Positions 1-11,407 are shown, counted from the first letter of the stretch. The stretch is DNA of 40,498 nucleotides from Planctomycetota bacterium (GCA_023261445.1 JAHFOX010000009.1:1-40498); one strand, 5' to 3'. The notes: generated by a model from the letters alone, not told the origin. Program-made: numbers and translations.

Positions 1-2
1 TA

Positions 3-770
3 TTAATACTCAGAACTGCCGGAACAAATTGTGATTACGAAACCCAATATGCCTTTGAAAAGGCGGGGGCGCGGGTGGACGTTGTCCATATAAACAACCT
101 GCTCGCTAATAAGAAACTGCCAAAAGAATATCATATCTTAACATTTCCCGGAGGTTTCACTTACGGCGATGACGTTTCTGCTGGCAAAATACTGGCAAAT
201 CAGATTAAATACAATCTGGAAGAAGAAATTAAATACTTCATTCGTGAAAAAAAACTAATTCTTGGAATATGCAATGGATTTCAGATGTTGATAAAGTCAT
301 GTCTTCTGCCTTCAATAAACAGCCAGCAACAGGAGGCAACATTAACCTTCAATGACTCAAACAAATTTGAAGACCGATGGGTATACCTGAAAATATGTTC
401 AAATAAATCTTTCTTTATTAATGATGAAAACATTTCTACAATGTATCTCCCGATAGCGCATGGGGAGGGAAAATTTATTGTAAAAGATGAAACTGTTTTA
501 AATAAAATTATGAATAACCATCAGGTAGTCATCAAATATGTAAACGAACGTGGCGAAGATGCCGGCTATCCGTGGAATCCCAACGGCTCTGTCCAGAATA
601 TAGCGGGAATCTGTGATTCAAGTGGTCAAATACTTGGCATGATGCCGCACCCGGAAAGGCATGTTGAATCCACACAACACCCGCATTGGACACGCAACGG
701 ACTCAAGGAATTTGGAGACGGTTTCTTAATTTTTCGGAATGCAGTTAATTACATTAAATCTAATTTTTAA
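3..770 (+). CDS. purQ: Phosphoribosylformylglycinamidine synthase, glutaminase subunit PurQ (5' end cut by window edge)
   Basis: The frame stays open upstream of the listed GTG (75) to the window edge: LILRTAGTNCDYETQYAFEKAGARVDVVHINNL. Class I amidotransferase motif LGICNGFQML and C-terminal MMPHPERH. Confidence 0.95.
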   Translation, partial: LILRTAGTNCDYETQYAFEKAGARVDVVHINNLLANKKLPKEYHILTFPGGFTYGDDVSAGKILANQIKYNLEEEIKYFIREKKLILGICNGFQMLIKSCLLPSINSQQQEATLTFNDSNKFEDRWVYLKICSNKSFFINDENISTMYLPIAHGEGKFIVKDETVLNKIMNNHQVVIKYVNERGEDAGYPWNPNGSVQNIAGICDSSGQILGMMPHPERHVESTQHPHWTRNGLKEFGDGFLIFRNAVNYIKSNF

Positions 771-802: not shown

Positions 803-1297
803 ATGCATAAAAATGTAACCTTAAATAAAGAAAATACACCATCGGTTGATTTAACCAAATGCAATACTATACTTTCAAAATATAGCAAGGCAACGCACGC
901 CGACCTCATTCCCATCTTACAGCAAATACAAGATGCTTATGGTTATTTACCTATGGCTGCGTTAGAAGAAATAACTGTAAGAACCCGCATTCCAATAAGC
1001 AAGATTTATGGGGTCGTCACTTTTTACTCACAATTCTCAATGGAACCACGAGGCAGACACACAATTAAAGTATGCGTAGGCACAGCGTGCCATATCAAAG
1101 GCGCTCCTGACATAAAGAAAAAAATCACGGAAGTGCTCCATATCAACGAGGGAGAAACAACATCAGATTATAAATTCACATACGAACCGGTTGCATGTTT
1201 AGGCACATGTTTCCTTGCGCCTGTTATGATGGTTGACGGCAGATATTACGGGAAACTAACCATAGAAAAAACTGAAACTATTCTCAAGAGCTATTAA
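803..1297 (+). CDS. nuoE: NADH dehydrogenase/diaphorase 24 kDa-type [2Fe-2S] subunit
   Basis: Thioredoxin-like 2Fe-2S cysteines CVGTACHIKGA and CLGTCFLAP; IPISKIYGVVTFYSQF signature. Confidence 0.93.
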   Translation: MHKNVTLNKENTPSVDLTKCNTILSKYSKATHADLIPILQQIQDAYGYLPMAALEEITVRTRIPISKIYGVVTFYSQFSMEPRGRHTIKVCVGTACHIKGAPDIKKKITEVLHINEGETTSDYKFTYEPVACLGTCFLAPVMMVDGRYYGKLTIEKTETILKSY

Positions 1298-1317
1298 TGT
1301 TTTAAGGAGAATCCGTC

Positions 1318-3000
1318 TTGGAAAAATTAAAAGATCACGATGCACTTGTAAAGTATAGAAAATCCTTAGAATCCAAACGTCGCCCCGACATGATACGGGT
1401 ATTGATTTGCACAACAGGCTGCAGGGCGCTTGGAGCAGAAGAGGTTTACAAGGCTTTTAAACTAGAAGTTGAAAAACAGTCCTTAAAAGACAAATTAGAA
1501 ATCGTTGACACTGGTTGTCAGGGTTTATGCGCCAGAGCGCCAGTCTTAACCATAGAACCAATGGGCATTTTCTATGGCAGGGCGACAGAAACCGATGTCC
1601 CTGAAATTATATCGCGCACCATTCTTAAAGGCGAAATTATCGAACGTCTCTGTTACACAGATGCTGGCAAACGGACTCCATATATCCGCGATATTCCTTT
1701 TTATGGTAAACAAAAAAAGATCGTGCTCAGAAATTGCGGTAATATAGACCCGAAAAGGATAAACGACTACATACTGAGGGACGGATACGCAGCGCTTTCA
1801 AAAGTCCTCACCACTATAAAACCAGACGACGTCATTAATGAAGTAAAGAATTCAGGATTGCGCGGAAGAGGCGGCGCTGGGTTTCCCACAGGAAATAAAT
1901 GGGAATTCGTTAAAAAGGCAGTTGGCGATGTAAAATACATTGTCTGCAATGGTGACGAAGGCGATCCGGGCGCTTTTATGGATCGGGCAGTCCTCGAAGG
2001 CGACCCCCACTCAGTCATCGAAGGAATGTTAATCGGTGCTTATGCAATTGGGTCAAGTAAGGGAATCGTATATGTTCGCGCAGAATACCCGATTGCTGTT
2101 GAACATCTAAAAATAGCTATAGAGCAGGCAAAATTACTGGGACTTCTTGGAAATAATATCCTTGGTTCTGATTTCAGCTTTGACTTGGGAATCAAAATGG
2201 GCGCTGGCGCTTTTGTGTGCGGTGAGGAAACCGCCCTTATTGCTTCGATTGAAGGAAAACGCGGTATGCCGCGCCCGCGTCCCCCGTTTCCTGCAACCAG
2301 CGGTCTCTGGGGAAAACCTACGAATATCAACAATGTGGAGACCTTTGCAAACGTCCCAATTATTATCCTCAAAGGGTCAGCATTCTATAAAGCCATAGGT
2401 ACGGAAACCAGCAAAGGTACAAAGATATTCGCACTGGCAGGCAATGTGAAAAATACAGGACTCGTTGAGGTCCCCATGGGAACTACACTCCGCGAGATTG
2501 TATTTGATATTGGCGGTGGTATCCCCGGACGAAAAAAATTCAAGGCGGCACAGATGGGTGGACCTTCAGGTGGATGCGTACCTGCCCAGCATCTCGATCT
2601 CCCTATTGATTACGAAACCGTAAAAGAAGTAGGAGCTATAATGGGTTCTGGGGGACTTATTGTTATGGACGACTCTACATCCATGGTTGACATTGCACGG
2701 TATTTCATGGAATTTTGTCAGGATGAATCTTGCGGAAAATGTGTACCATGCAGGGTAGGCACTAAGAGAATGCTCGATATATTAACACGGATTACAAAGG
2801 GGCAGGGAAAGAAAGATGACATTGGTCTGTTAAAAGAACTTGCTGAGGTCACTAAAACAGCATCATTATGCGGTCTTGGGCAAACAGCGGCAAACCCTGT
2901 GCTTTCCACAATTCGTTATTATCTCAACGAGTATGAAGAATTAATTAATAAGAAAGATGCTCCGTCTTTACCACAAGAAAGTCAAACAACACAAACCTAA
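1318..3000 (+). CDS. nuoF: NuoF/HydB-type NADH-binding flavoprotein with N-terminal 2Fe-2S thioredoxin-like domain
   Basis: TTG start. GLRGRGGAGFPTGNKWEF and CNGDEGDPGAFMDR (FMN/NADH site), SLBB region, C-terminal ESCGKCVPCRVGT 4Fe-4S; N-terminal CTTGC...TGCQGLC. Confidence 0.93.
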   Translation: MEKLKDHDALVKYRKSLESKRRPDMIRVLICTTGCRALGAEEVYKAFKLEVEKQSLKDKLEIVDTGCQGLCARAPVLTIEPMGIFYGRATETDVPEIISRTILKGEIIERLCYTDAGKRTPYIRDIPFYGKQKKIVLRNCGNIDPKRINDYILRDGYAALSKVLTTIKPDDVINEVKNSGLRGRGGAGFPTGNKWEFVKKAVGDVKYIVCNGDEGDPGAFMDRAVLEGDPHSVIEGMLIGAYAIGSSKGIVYVRAEYPIAVEHLKIAIEQAKLLGLLGNNILGSDFSFDLGIKMGAGAFVCGEETALIASIEGKRGMPRPRPPFPATSGLWGKPTNINNVETFANVPIIILKGSAFYKAIGTETSKGTKIFALAGNVKNTGLVEVPMGTTLREIVFDIGGGIPGRKKFKAAQMGGPSGGCVPAQHLDLPIDYETVKEVGAIMGSGGLIVMDDSTSMVDIARYFMEFCQDESCGKCVPCRVGTKRMLDILTRITKGQGKKDDIGLLKELAEVTKTASLCGLGQTAANPVLSTIRYYLNEYEELINKKDAPSLPQESQTTQT

Positions 3001-3009
3001 GAGTAAATT

Positions 3010-4947
3010 ATGAAAATTCTCCTCATCGGTGCTGGCAAGGGTGGCTCGGCACTTCTATCTATCTTACGGGAAGACAAAGAAATTGATATTGTAGGAGTCG
3101 TTGATATCCACAATGATGCAGAAGGTCTGAAGATTGCAAGACAATACAACATTCCAACCCATACCAATTATGATAATTTAATAAAAAGAGCAGATTTAGA
3201 CGTCATTATTGATGTTACGAGAAATCCACAAGTACTCAACGATATAGTAAAATACAAGCCTGCAAATACTGAAATACTTGGCGGCCTAAGCGCCAAACTT
3301 ATATGGAGTCTGGTGGAAGAAAGGAAGAAAAAGGAGGAAGAAATACAAAAAAACCTCTCCGAACAGAAAGCGCTATATCATATTGGAATTATGATTTCCT
3401 CCGCAATTGAAATGAACGACGTATTCCAAACCATAGTCAAAAGCGGACTGGAGGTAACAAATACACCTGCTGGCAGTCTTGCGCTGTATGATTCTGAAGA
3501 AAACGTGCTTGAACTGGCCGCCGTGCAAGGCTTCAGCCCTGAATTTTCCTCAAAAGCAACACGGTGGAAGGTAAGACCCGGTGGGCTTACAAGTAAAATT
3601 CTTTCGCAAAGACGGCCTGTCGTGGTACCTGATATAACCAAAGAACACTCCATGGACACAAGAGTTATACTGGCTGAAGGCATTCGTTCTCTGGTAGCCA
3701 CGCCTCTAACTGCCGAAGATAGGGTTGTTGGTATCCTTTATGTGGACGATTATAAACCACGCACCTTTACAAAAAGAGACATTTCCATTCTTGAACTTCT
3801 CGCAACGCAGGCAACAATCGCCATCAAAAAAGCAAAAACAAGAAAACAACTTGAGCTTAAAAACCTCGAACTTAAAAGAACGACTGACTATTTACAAAAC
3901 ATACTTGATAACTCCGCCGATATTATTATCACTACAGATATTTATAATAATGTGGTAGAATTTAATAAAGGCGCGGAAGAAATGCTTGGATATACACAAA
4001 ACGAAACGGTTGGGAAACCCTTATGTAATTTCTTCGCAAATTCTGACCATTGCAATTTACTCCTTGAAAAAATCAAACAGGAAGGAAAGGTTTCGAATCA
4101 GGAAACACAGTTCATTACAAAGAAAAAGAAGACCATTGATATCAGTCTTACACTCTCACAACTCAAAGATAGTAATGGAAATATGCTAGGAACCGTTGGC
4201 ATTAGCAAAGATATTACAGAATTCAAAAAAACTCAGGCACAACTCGTACAAGCTGGGAAACTTGCCGGCATAGGTCAATTAGCGGCTGGTATTGCACATG
4301 AAATAAACAATCCTTTAAGCGGTGTACTTGGATACGCCAAAAGACTTGTGAAAAAGGCTGAAACTGAAGAACTCAAAAAAATCCCTGCCGTTGAATCTTT
4401 TCAAAAAGAAATTAAACTGATTGTTGATTCAGCCTTGCGTTGTAAAAAGATTATAGATGGCCTGCTTAGATTTTCACGCACATCAGAGACGATGAGTACT
4501 GCTGTAAATATCAACGAAGTAATTGACGAATCCCTCATATTGTTCGGCAATCAGTTATCGTCACAGAACATTGAGTTGAACAAAGTATTAAGCCAGAGCA
4601 TCCCCACTATTCGCGCTAATCACACGCAAATACAACAAGTTTTTACCGACATCATCATTAATGCCATACAGGCGATGCCCAATGGAGGCAAACTAACGAT
4701 TACTACAAGACCCGTAAATTCCTCTGCGGTTGAAATAGAATTTACTGACACTGGAGAAGGTATTTCAAAAGAAAACCTACCCAAAATATTTGAACCTTTC
4801 TTCACCACCCGTGAACCGGGCAAAGGAACGGGATTGGGGTTATATATGATTTATAGGATTTTACAAGAACATCACGGTCACATAGACGTAAAAAGCGAAG
4901 TTGGAAAGGGGGCAACCTTCACCATAACCTTGCCCTGTATACAATAA
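3010..4947 (+). CDS. Sensor histidine kinase: N-terminal NAD-type Rossmann domain, GAF, PAS, HisKA, HATPase
   Basis: N-terminus MKILLIGAGKGGSALLSIL...IVGVVDIHNDAEG (glycine-rich loop plus acidic end of beta2); GAF ~aa 120-280; PAS LQNILDNSADIIITTD; H-box GIAHEINNPLSG; G boxes FTDTGEGISKENLPKIFEPFFTTREPGKGTGLGL. Confidence 0.9.
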   Translation: MKILLIGAGKGGSALLSILREDKEIDIVGVVDIHNDAEGLKIARQYNIPTHTNYDNLIKRADLDVIIDVTRNPQVLNDIVKYKPANTEILGGLSAKLIWSLVEERKKKEEEIQKNLSEQKALYHIGIMISSAIEMNDVFQTIVKSGLEVTNTPAGSLALYDSEENVLELAAVQGFSPEFSSKATRWKVRPGGLTSKILSQRRPVVVPDITKEHSMDTRVILAEGIRSLVATPLTAEDRVVGILYVDDYKPRTFTKRDISILELLATQATIAIKKAKTRKQLELKNLELKRTTDYLQNILDNSADIIITTDIYNNVVEFNKGAEEMLGYTQNETVGKPLCNFFANSDHCNLLLEKIKQEGKVSNQETQFITKKKKTIDISLTLSQLKDSNGNMLGTVGISKDITEFKKTQAQLVQAGKLAGIGQLAAGIAHEINNPLSGVLGYAKRLVKKAETEELKKIPAVESFQKEIKLIVDSALRCKKIIDGLLRFSRTSETMSTAVNINEVIDESLILFGNQLSSQNIELNKVLSQSIPTIRANHTQIQQVFTDIIINAIQAMPNGGKLTITTRPVNSSAVEIEFTDTGEGISKENLPKIFEPFFTTREPGKGTGLGLYMIYRILQEHHGHIDVKSEVGKGATFTITLPCIQ

Positions 4948-5028
4948 AATTCAACATTTAATACTGTATGAATCTGTTTATCTAGAATTTTGTAAACATG
5001 GCTGTTATAGGCTGTGGGATGGAGTGAG

Positions 5029-5072
5029 GTCAACCGTCTTGGTTGACATTAGTTCTTGAGTTACACTTAAAT
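5029..5072 (+). promoter_or_regulatory. Inverted repeat overlapping a TTGACA -35 upstream of the REC-REC-PAS gene
   Basis: GTCAACC-GTCTT-GGTTGAC (5029-5047); TTGACA at 5043-5048, then TTAAAT at 5067-5072 (18-nt spacer). Confidence 0.4.
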
Positions 5073-5121
5073 ATTTATACCGATATATATTATTTATGTT
5101 CAAACATACGGAGGGATAGCT

Positions 5122-6312
5122 ATGACAGGCGAAAGAATCTTAGTTATAGACGATGAAGAGGTCATATGTGCTTTGCTAAAAGACACCCTCACCGATGAAG
5201 GGTACCAGGTGGAAACAGTAACCAACGGCGCAGAAGGGCTTGAGAAACTCATGAGGGGAGAACCCTTTGACATACTTCTTACTGACATAAGAATGCCCAA
5301 AAAAGACGGGATTCAGGTGCTAAAAGAGGCGAAAAACCGCATCCCTGATATAATCACAATCATTATGACAGGATACCCAAGCATAGAAACCATCCGTGAA
5401 TCAAGCGAATACAACGCATTTGATTACATTACAAAACCACTGGACCCTGATGAAGTATGCGAATCCATTAAGCGTTCCCTTGAAGTGCGAAAATTATCAA
5501 GAGAACTAAAAATCCCTGAAAAACCACCAACCATACTTGTAGTGGATGATATGCAATCGGCGCTGTTTTTATCGGAAGGCATTTTACAGGACGAGGGTTA
5601 TCACGCCGAGATAGCGCAAAATGGACAGGAGGCATTAGAAAGATTCAAGCAAAAACACTTTGATGTCGTAGTAGCCGATCTTCACATGCCGGGCATGGAC
5701 GGTATCGAACTCCTGAACAATATCAAAAAACAAGACATTAAGACACTTGTCATTATCATGACAGCACGGCCTAGTATTGACTCAGCAATATTGGCTTTCC
5801 GACATGGCGCATACGACTATATCACAAAACCCATTGACCCCGATACTATCATCAACACAATACAGCGTGGCTGGGAAAAACATAATATAGAAACAAACAC
5901 GGATAAGTTGTTAAAACGCCTCCACAACATGCGCCAACAAATGCTTGACGAAAATACCTCATTATTCAAAGAAATAAACTGGATAAATAATGTCTTAGAC
6001 GCTTCACCAGACCTTATTATTGCTACTGACGAGTACGCTGTTATCCATCTCGTCAACCGTACCGCTGTTCAAACATTAGGTTATAAAAAAGATGAACTTG
6101 TTGGGAAACCCATAGACAAACTCTTTGAAGAGAAAAAAAGTTTCTTCAGAGAAACTGAGCCAGGAACTATGGTAAAAAAAGGAAATATTTACAATTGCCC
6201 TCTTACATGCATAACAAACAAAGGCGACAGAATCAAAACAATGTGGTCTGGCGCCCCCCTCCTCGATAAAGATGGAAAGGTAAAAGGGGTTGTGGGAATA
6301 GGCAGGAAATAG
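5122..6312 (+). CDS. Response regulator with two receiver domains and a C-terminal PAS domain, no DNA-binding output
   Basis: Two REC domains (ILVIDDEEVICALL...LLTDIRMPKKDG; ILVVDDMQSALFL...VVADLHMPGMDG), each with a K-P motif (YITKPLDP, YITKPIDP), then PAS NNVLDASPDLIIATDEY. Confidence 0.9.
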   Translation: MTGERILVIDDEEVICALLKDTLTDEGYQVETVTNGAEGLEKLMRGEPFDILLTDIRMPKKDGIQVLKEAKNRIPDIITIIMTGYPSIETIRESSEYNAFDYITKPLDPDEVCESIKRSLEVRKLSRELKIPEKPPTILVVDDMQSALFLSEGILQDEGYHAEIAQNGQEALERFKQKHFDVVVADLHMPGMDGIELLNNIKKQDIKTLVIIMTARPSIDSAILAFRHGAYDYITKPIDPDTIINTIQRGWEKHNIETNTDKLLKRLHNMRQQMLDENTSLFKEINWINNVLDASPDLIIATDEYAVIHLVNRTAVQTLGYKKDELVGKPIDKLFEEKKSFFRETEPGTMVKKGNIYNCPLTCITNKGDRIKTMWSGAPLLDKDGKVKGVVGIGRK

Positions 6313-8185: not shown

Positions 8186-8705
8186 ACTAGCTCATATTAT
8201 ATTATCTTTCTGTTCATTATCAATCTAAATCCGATTCACTAAATAGTTACAAGGGTTGGGTGTGCTTATTACCCAACCAGATTCTCTCTAACATGAGAAT
8301 ATGTCTTGAATTTATTTCATGGCTTTATTGAGTTTTATCTTTTATCTGGTTCCTGCGATTTAGAATCCTAAGCTATACAACATTTCTGATTATGGCTACT
8401 ACAGGCTAAGCCATTTGAACTTAATAATGAATTATATTTTGACATTAACCCTGTTTTCTAATATAATTTAGCTCAAATAAATTAAAAAGAGATTCTGTTC
8501 GTCACACTTCTACATGGCACCGTGTGACCGTGACTTAGCCCACACTTTGATATCATTTACGCTTCTAAATTGCACTATGATGTTATTCCCGAGCAAAGTC
8601 GAGAAATGTACAGCAATAAGGGTCAATCGGGATAAATAAGAATTTAATTTATATTGTTTTTTATATTCAGTCTGTATCGTAGTAATTAAATTTATTCTTA
8701 AATTA

Positions 8706-10640
8706 ATGGCTAAAAAAAACAAACCCAAAACCAAGAAAGCTCCGTTTTCCATCGGATATATACTACTCTTCATTTTGGTTATATATATCGTGCAGATGTT
8801 TTTATCACCAAAAGCCGAAGAAATTTCGTACAGCCAGTTCAGGTTGTATCTGAAAAACGGTTATATATCTGAATGTACTGTAGGACAGAATATTATCCGC
8901 GGTTACTACAAAAAATTATCTGCCGAAGGCGATAAAGAAGAAAAAATCGCGTTCGTAACAGTGCCAATTCCTAATGCAGAACTCGTCAATGAACTTGAAT
9001 CCCAAAAGGTCAGGTTTAAAGGCGCTGTTGAGAATAATTTCTTCAGAAATATCCTGATGTGGTGGGTTTTCCCATTCGGCATTATGGCATTAGGATGGTT
9101 TTTCCTCTTTAGGAGAGTCGGTGGAATGGGGTCGCCTTTTATGTCTTTTGGAAAGGCAAAAATAAAATTATATTCTGACAATGGGACGCAGAAAACGACT
9201 TTTATTGACGTAGCAGGATGCGATGAAGCGAAAGAAGAGTTAAAAGAAATTATAGATTTTCTCTCCTACCCCGAACGATTCCAGAAGCTTGGAGGAAAAA
9301 TCCCAAAAGGTGTTTTATTGATAGGTCCTCCAGGAACTGGCAAAACATTACTGGCAAGAGCTGTTGCGGGTGAGGCAGGTGTGCCTTTCTTTTCAATTAG
9401 CGGTTCAGACTTTGTAGAAATGTTTGTCGGGATGGGTGCCGCACGAGTACGGGATATGTTTGAACAGGCGAAGGAAAAGGCTCCGTGTATTGTTTTCATT
9501 GATGAAATTGACAGCGTTGGCCGCCAACGCGGCACAGGATTAGGCGGTGGTCATGACGAACGCGAACAGACCCTCAACCAACTCCTCGCAGAGATGGATG
9601 GTTTCAGTGCACAGAAAGGCGTTATTATTGTTGCAGCAACTAACCGACCAGACGTCCTAGATAGCGCATTACTGCGTCCGGGACGTTTTGACCGCCAAAT
9701 AACTGTAGACAGACCCGACCTCATTGGCCGCGAAGCCATTTTGTCAGTCCACTCCAAATCCGTAAAATTATCGAACGACGTTAGTTTGAAGGTTATTGCT
9801 AAGCGTACTCCTGGTTTTTCTGGGGCAGATCTGGCAAACGTCATTAACGAAGCTGCTCTACTTGCGGCAAGGCATAGTAAGAACTATGTTGGTATGGAGG
9901 AATTAGAATCCTCAATTGACAGGGTGATAGCCGGTCCTGAAAGAAAGAGCAGAATTATGAGCGATAAGGAAAAAAAGACTGTCGCATTCCACGAATCAGG
10001 ACACACTCTTGTAGCCGCACTGCTTCCAAATACAGACCCAGTGCATAAGGTTTCCATCATTCCGAGAGGAACTGCGGCATTGGGATATACGATGCAATTA
10101 CCTACGGAAGATAAATATTTAACAAGTGAATCTGAAATTCTGGATACGCTATGTGTTTTGCTTGGAGGCCGTGCCGCTGAAGAACTTGTGCTGGACGAAA
10201 TATCTACAGGCGCTCAAAACGATTTAGTGAAAGTCACACAGTTGGCAAGAAGCTACGTCTGTAAATTTGGTATGAGCAAAAAACTAGGCCCGCAGACTTT
10301 CGGCAGGCAATCTGGGAATATTTTCCTCGGACATGACCTTGTTCAAGAAAAGGAATATAGTGAAAAGACAGCCGTTATCATAGACGAGGAAGTTACAAAT
10401 ATTGTCAAAGAAGGGTATGAAAAAGCAAGAAAATTGCTCAACGATAACAGAGGCAAGCTGGAACTATTAGCAAAAAAACTGGAAGAAGAAGAGGTGCTAG
10501 AAGGAGATCAGGTTCTTGAACTGTTACACATAGAAAAGAAACACACTGGAACTCCCAGTAAATCGGATATCGCTCCAATTGAACAGCCGCAACAAAGCCT
10601 GCAGTACACAAGCAAGGACACGCAAAAAAGTAAACAATAA
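8706..10640 (+). CDS. ftsH: ATP-dependent zinc metalloprotease FtsH
   Basis: Walker A GPPGTGKT, Walker [15 protein letters not shown], zinc site HESGH, N-terminal TM segments. Confidence 0.97.
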
Positions 10641-10648
10641 GTTATATT

Positions 10649-11407
10649 TTATTTTGCAGATTGCATTTCTGTTAGAAGGCTTTGCGGCAGATTAAAATTA
10701 GAATATACGTTTTGCACGTCATCATGCTCCTCAAGTGCTTCCATAAGTCTTAGTACTTTGCGGCCTGCTGTTTCATCCAGATCAATGTTGCTCTTAGGCA
10801 TCCAACTAACCTCAGCGGTTTCAACGGCAATGTTTTTTCCCATGATGGCTTTCTTTACAGTATATAAATCCGATTGCGAGCATATAATCTGAAAAACATC
10901 TCCCACCTTTTGCATGTCCTCAGCCCCAGCTTCCAGAATAAGCATCATAAACTCATCTTCGTTGATATTGCTATCATTCACTATGATAAGCCCCTTCTTT
11001 TCGAACATCCATGACACACAACCTGATTCTCCCAAATTTCCTCCAAACCGTTCAAATATCTTCCTTATTTCAGGAACAGTTCTGTTTTTGTTATCCGTAA
11101 GTATCTCTACCATCAGAGCAATGCCGTGCGGGCCGTATCCTTCATACAGACACTCAAATAATTCTGTGCCACTCCCGCCCTCACCGGTACCTTTCTGGAT
11201 AGCACGTTCTATATTTTCTTTAGGCATATTAACAGAACGAGCCTTTTCAATTGCAAGCTGCAATTTTGCGTTCATGGTTGGATCGCCTCCGCCTTTTCTT
11301 GCAGCAACGGTAATCATACGCGCCATCTTAGAAAAGGCTTTACCCTTTTTCGCATCCGCAGTGCCTTTTTTATGCTTTATACTTGCCCAATGTGAATGTC
11401 CAGCCAT
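10649..11407 (-). CDS. yebC: YebC/PmpR (TACO1) family protein
   Basis: MAGHSHWASIKHKKGTADAKKGKAFSKMAR, full-length family signature. Confidence 0.95.
   Translation of the reverse strand: MAGHSHWASIKHKKGTADAKKGKAFSKMARMITVAARKGGGDPTMNAKLQLAIEKARSVNMPKENIERAIQKGTGEGGSGTELFECLYEGYGPHGIALMVEILTDNKNRTVPEIRKIFERFGGNLGESGCVSWMFEKKGLIIVNDSNINEDEFMMLILEAGAEDMQKVGDVFQIICSQSDLYTVKKAIMGKNIAVETAEVSWMPKSNIDLDETAGRKVLRLMEALEEHDDVQNVYSNFNLPQSLLTEMQSAK

Follow-up and report, generated by a model that had tools for sequence, protein, structure and literature searches.

The window analyzed here, a stretch of 40,498 nucleotides, is a complete contig (G000:C47) from a genome of the anammox family Brocadiaceae, and it terminates inside the gene purQ. 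The final 120 bases of another contig of the same genome (G000:C69; locus L046) are identical to window positions 1-120, and when this exact overlap is read across, the gene order becomes purL, fdhA, purQ, nuoE, nuoF, a histidine kinase gene, a gene for a REC-REC-PAS protein and a MobB-like gene. Gene calls and domain searches both agreed with the preliminary description on the presence of nuoE, nuoF, a 645-aa kinase starting 9 bp past the nuoF stop codon and a double-receiver protein. The features of the window that are considered here are the following:

1-770, plus strand: purQ, glutamine amidotransferase, truncated at its 5' side by the contig boundary (PF13507, E=4e-84)
803-1297, plus strand: nuoE, FdhC-like [2Fe-2S] thioredoxin-fold subunit, 164 aa (PF01257; NuoE equivalog)
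1318-3000, plus strand: nuoF, FdhB-like FMN and NADH subunit, 560 aa, TTG start, N-terminal [2Fe-2S] domain (closest solved chains HydB 7t2r_B and 7q4v_B)
3010-3339, plus strand: kinase aa 1-110, predicted Rossmann input domain with GAGKGG...D32 that continues as a long helix (aa 93-119)
3340-4947, plus strand: kinase aa 111-645, GAF, PAS, HisKA (H430) and HATPase_c domains (Pfam)
5122-6312, plus strand: double-receiver response regulator, REC-REC-PAS, 396 aa
6427-7080, plus strand: MobB-like P-loop protein/GTPase, molybdopterin-cofactor related (MobB Pfam 29.5 bits; NCBIfam 35 bits, below cut-off)

It is because the contig ends inside purQ that a partner subunit of NuoEF appeared to be missing. 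NuoEF had been described as stand-alone, which turned out to be an artefact of the window end, as fdhA lies directly upstream on contig C69. Likewise, the stated absence of any further complex I or hydrogenase subunit is true of the window, but contig C69 carries this fdhA, whose product has a NuoG-type N-terminus. The readings of NuoEF as an orphan or as a complex I remnant were dropped once fdhA had been found across the contig overlap.

The fdhA gene encodes an 895-aa molybdopterin formate dehydrogenase alpha subunit, which scores 849.7 bits against TIGR01591 (Fdh-alpha; cut-off 666) and carries the motif NCARVCHAP at residue 348, with the Cys that occupies the molybdopterin active-site Cys/Sec position. 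Its closest PDB chain is 6tg9_A (FdsA, NAD-dependent formate dehydrogenase; 826 bits), and the FMN/NADH beta and [2Fe-2S] gamma subunits are encoded together with the alpha subunit, as is characteristic of NAD-dependent molybdo-formate dehydrogenases. The gene fdhA is found just upstream of purQ in six kinase-bearing relatives as well (G153, G122, G313, G316, G305 and G303), where the order is fdhA-purQ-nuoE-nuoF-kinase (e.g., loci L018, L019 and L080), and it is also located upstream in four kinase-less genomes (G306, G070, G217 and G302). Moreover, nuoE-nuoF-fdhA is contiguous in G275 and G088 (loci L095 and L097), and in the former it is preceded by a formate-THF ligase gene and followed by acetyl-CoA synthase (CODH/ACS) genes, while in family f2 (L107) formate-THF ligase is encoded immediately upstream of purQ-nuoEF. 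On account of the upstream fdhA, the contiguous arrangement elsewhere and these neighbours, NuoEF most likely serves as the NADH module in a formate dehydrogenase of Wood-Ljungdahl/one-carbon metabolism, FdhA-NuoE-NuoF, whose activity is predicted from sequence. No fdhA is adjacent to nuoEF in G304, G292 and G267, and the sole FdhA of the latter two genomes is of the selenocysteine type, suggesting that the catalytic partner may vary.

FdsABG, or FdhA-FdhB-FdhC (R. capsulatus, 6tg9), shares with this locus an FdhA with a NuoG-type N-terminus, an FMN/NADH subunit and a [2Fe-2S] thioredoxin-fold subunit. Unlike in that enzyme, NuoF here is nearer to HydB/BfuB and keeps the N-terminal [2Fe-2S] (B5) ligand set, purQ is placed between fdhA and nuoE, and a MobB-like gene and a two-component system are linked.

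Several neighbouring genes deserve mention in their own right. The gene fdhA is flanked by purL and purQ (L046 2941-9050; window 1-770), and in most of the order purQ has remained adjacent to nuoE, which ties formate dehydrogenase durably to purine (formyl-THF) metabolism. The MobB-like protein falls far short of the cut-off for the mobB equivalog and contains additional Cys residues at 42, 48 and 51; its gene adjoins nuoF order-wide, and it is perhaps a cofactor-insertion GTPase for the FdhA-NuoEF enzyme. The window's genome also possesses a second fdhA (L045, G000:C6, approximately 8267-10969, minus strand), whose reading frame is interrupted once, by a TGA where the active-site residue is encoded (NVDQCART*HAPTVAGL). 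As a single in-frame TGA recurs in its homologues from about 20 other Brocadiales genomes, this gene very likely encodes a selenocysteine FdhA.

The kinase, its Rossmann-type domain and the regulator

The N-terminus of the kinase matches Pfam DapB_N and GFO_IDH_MocA, both above their cut-offs, and is followed by the GAF, PAS, HisKA and HATPase_c domains. That the kinase begins with a Rossmann-type domain, as first described, was borne out by these matches together with an AlphaFold2 prediction (mean pLDDT 90), in which residues 1-92 form the Rossmann domain and continue into a helix that spans 27 residues or more (aa 93-119). The nearest folds are the NAD-binding domains of Gfo/Idh/MocA oxidoreductases and of acylating acetaldehyde dehydrogenases, while the catalytic C-terminal half of these enzymes is absent from the kinase. 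The predicted beta-alpha-beta fold, the Gly-rich loop and an acidic residue after strand 2 are those of NAD(P)-binding Rossmann domains, and the 20 homologues, which range from Planctomycetota to a clostridial protein, share G7, G9, G11, D32, A43 and T70 without exception. An acidic residue at that place typically points to a preference for NAD over NADP, and Rossmann folds can bind NADP, CoA, SAM or FAD as well. Values of dN/dS in the N-terminal domain are mostly about 0.03-0.10, broadly as in the catalytic part (the values for L040 in the HisKA-HATPase part were excluded, since an indel shift makes them invalid), indicating that the Rossmann domain is maintained under strong purifying selection. 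The domain is thus predicted, from the model and its motifs, to be an NAD-type Rossmann fold, and NAD(H) would be its ligand.

Rex repressors, which sense NAD(H), similarly use a Rossmann domain with NAD-type motifs as a cytosolic input, and a weak profile match to them was obtained (E=0.03). However, Rex is a winged-helix DNA-binding protein, whereas here the Rossmann domain heads a histidine kinase and is nearer to the Gfo/Idh/MocA and acetaldehyde dehydrogenase domains; Pfam detected no winged-helix or other DNA-binding domain in either the kinase or the regulator.

The catalytic boxes of the kinase are intact (HEINNP at 430, DTGEG at 580 and GKGTGLGL at 604), and both receivers of the neighbouring protein keep their acceptor Asp motifs, TDIRMP and ADLHMP. 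An H-box His, D and G boxes and a REC partner with a phospho-acceptor Asp, the hallmarks of a two-component system, are thereby all encoded. The REC-REC-PAS protein (5122-6312) ends exactly where its PAS fold ends, and it is found at about the same length and approximately 74-81% identity in nearly all relatives that keep it. Since the domain search recognized neither a DNA-binding nor an enzymatic output domain in it, this regulator would have to act by protein contacts. Cytosolic GAF-PAS kinases of the AtoS/ZraS/NtrB type have a similar HisKA-HATPase core, but they differ from the present system, which has an N-terminal Rossmann domain and a partner that is a REC-REC-PAS protein without an output domain rather than a sigma-54 activator.

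Homologues of the Rossmann domain also precede other kinases, both in the window's own genome (L029 and L030) and in relatives and other Planctomycetota (L023, L024, L025 and L028), and two of these loci (L029 and L023) encode hybrid kinases. In addition, a protein of Acetoanaerobium noterae (NZ_CP154629.1, L048 8001-8783) carries the domain fused to a signalling domain of the MCP (chemotaxis) type, with the Rossmann domain as the sole input before the signalling helix and with no GAF, PAS or membrane segment. The record in question, 2.63 Mb long and labelled as a plasmid, has housekeeping genes and looks like a chromosome. As the domain heads other kinases and an MCP-type protein, it can be considered a reusable input module. 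The scan of genome contigs returned only Brocadiaceae-type loci, and the plasmid collection returned one relative, so the survey essentially covers Planctomycetota. In the open-access literature searched, we found no published histidine kinase with a Rossmann input reading the pyridine-nucleotide pool. We tentatively propose, as a possibility, that a Rossmann domain with an output helix represents a general class of inputs for sensing NAD(H) in the cytosol, used in histidine kinases and in a chemotaxis-type protein and fixed in one lineage beside a formate dehydrogenase, where NADH/NAD+ would set Wood-Ljungdahl carbon flow in anammox bacteria.

Another explanation leaves FdhA-NuoEF unchanged and places the operative sensor in the GAF and/or PAS domain, responding to a small molecule or a redox cofactor, with the Rossmann domain serving as a structural or dimerisation cap and the adjacency arising because some unrelated cue regulates the one-carbon locus. 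The kinase does possess generic GAF and PAS domains, Rossmann folds can lose their ligands, and paralogues with the Rossmann domain occur in unrelated neighbourhoods, for example beside HD-GYP genes. However, such a cap is hard to reconcile with glycines and a D32 that have stayed invariant as far as the clostridial protein under purifying selection of this strength, or with the A. noterae protein, in which the Rossmann domain alone provides the input, and we regard this explanation as rather unlikely.

Kinase-nuoF adjacency and its history

The kinase gene adjoins nuoF in all 14 Brocadiaceae genomes that have it, and its product remains approximately 80-86% identical among relatives while the flanking gaps vary. 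The nuoF-kinase gap measures 9 bp in the window and about 10-25 bp in around half the relatives, and it widens to approximately 160-800 bp in L038, L040, L021 and L020. The neighbourhood survey thus upheld a conserved adjacency for the kinase-bearing genomes, but nuoEF is also retained in many genomes that have no kinase gene. In the remaining members of the order, the MobB-like gene usually follows nuoF directly, with no kinase in between.

Relics of the two-component genes are still present in this nuoF-MobB gap. The kinase-less G306 retains sequences corresponding to kinase aa 6-32 and regulator aa 371-396, and relics of the regulator tail were found in G307, G168, G258 and G310, which also have no kinase. 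All relics are in the right order and strand, and 20 shuffled sets gave no match. On the NuoF tree, in which several forks are weakly supported, the history of the kinase requires three changes. The relics in kinase-less genomes suggest that the two-component pair is ancestral to the clade and was lost at least twice; a late gain of kinase and regulator in the lineage of the window was rejected on the same grounds. Both genes have been deleted in several genomes that retain nuoEF and fdhA, and are hence dispensable. An essential role of the kinase as a partner of NuoEF was likewise rejected, given that nuoF orthologues survive in genomes without a kinase and that five genomes retain relics. 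Therefore, the two-component pair is accessory to the formate dehydrogenase and not part of the enzyme.

Repeated deletion, and the nuoF-MobB order without a kinase elsewhere in the order, might also be expected if the two-component system were merely parked between nuoF and the MobB-like gene as a chance neighbour. This is quite improbable, given an adjacency without exception among the kinase-bearing genomes, at the above kinase identity and despite varying flanking gaps.

The preliminary description had proposed that the diaphorase passes redox state directly to the kinase, and in a direct coupling of this kind NuoEF would contact the kinase and hand over electrons or bound pyridine nucleotide. 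The short gap in the window and the invariant adjacency in 14 genomes would suit such a contact. However, no Cys/His cluster that could bind a cofactor is evident in the kinase, this type of Rossmann input is also used in signalling proteins encoded away from nuoEF, nuoEF outlasts the loss of the kinase, and the gap is far wider in the four loci listed above. The proposal was therefore not retained: direct coupling is very improbable, and direct electron delivery from NuoF to the kinase is unlikely.

NuoF and the electron-bifurcating families

The best match of NuoF is of the HydB/BfuB type, with a score of 767 bits against A. mobile BfuB (7t2r_B), and NuoE resembles BfuC; the A. mobile cluster is likewise accompanied by a hisK gene (PMC9304861). 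Two features define the Bfu (HydABC-like) family: the B2 ligands, one of them a His that almost every BfuB retains, and a ferredoxin domain at the C-terminus of BfuB (PMC9304861). In contrast, NuoF has Ser455, Thr493, Leu542 and Ala548 at the B2 ligand places, with Ser455, Leu542 and Ala548 standing for Cys438, His525 and Cys531, respectively. The ligand check found neither the Cys438 equivalent nor the B2 His in any of 46 NuoF orthologues, and the Pfam scan found no C-terminal 4Fe-4S ferredoxin domain (IPR017896, B3/B4; 2[4Fe-4S]) in the window NuoF, which ends at 560 aa. Because the B2 ligands and the B3/B4 domain are absent, NuoF is predicted to be non-bifurcating. For the same reason an electron-bifurcating (Bfu) formate dehydrogenase, favoured on the HydB best match, was dropped. 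An assignment of NuoEF to complex I or an electron-bifurcating hydrogenase is very improbable: although the solved chain most similar to NuoF is HydB from a bifurcating NiFe-hydrogenase, the ligands and domain just mentioned are missing, fdhA lies beside nuoEF, and relatives have a separate NuoF paralogue of 610-630 aa with a NuoG-like neighbour of its own.

This paralogue and the adjoining 886-aa NuoG-like protein are encoded at G122:C1 1125343-1129754 and equivalent positions; the draft genome to which the window belongs gave no match for the paralogue. The pair fits the bifurcating Nuo-Bfu complex predicted for Planctomycetes (PMC9304861). As well, L111, L112 and L113 (G106, G315 and G248) carry a divergent nuoEF (about 58% NuoF identity) at the same place, with purQ inverted and both kinase and regulator gone.

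Proposed function of the locus

With moderate confidence, we propose that the locus encodes a cytosolic molybdopterin formate dehydrogenase, FdhA with a NuoE-NuoF NADH module, for anammox one-carbon metabolism (Wood-Ljungdahl CO2/formate), together with a linked kinase that reads soluble NAD(H). FdhA-NuoEF would interconvert CO2 and formate in Wood-Ljungdahl/one-carbon metabolism, beside the purine synthesis genes. Through its N-terminal Rossmann domain, the kinase might read the redox state of soluble NAD(H), or the level of NAD(H)/NADP(H), NAD(H) being the co-substrate that FdhA-NuoEF would share with the remaining metabolism. Binding could shift the pitch or register of the helix (aa 93-119) that enters the GAF-PAS-HisKA dimer, phosphate would then move from the kinase to the REC-REC-PAS protein as its probable partner, and the regulator may act through protein contacts, so that the two-component system would regulate the one-carbon locus as its presumed target.

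With the corrected context, an unexplained "orphan NuoEF" becomes the probable NADH arm of a formate dehydrogenase. Anammox bacteria live near the thermodynamic limit, and few of their regulators have been studied. Should NAD(H) indeed be bound by the Rossmann domain, the histidine kinase would have an input for direct sensing of the pyridine-nucleotide pool, and the proposed function, if true, would connect redox state to CO2 fixation in anammox bacteria in a way that can be tested.
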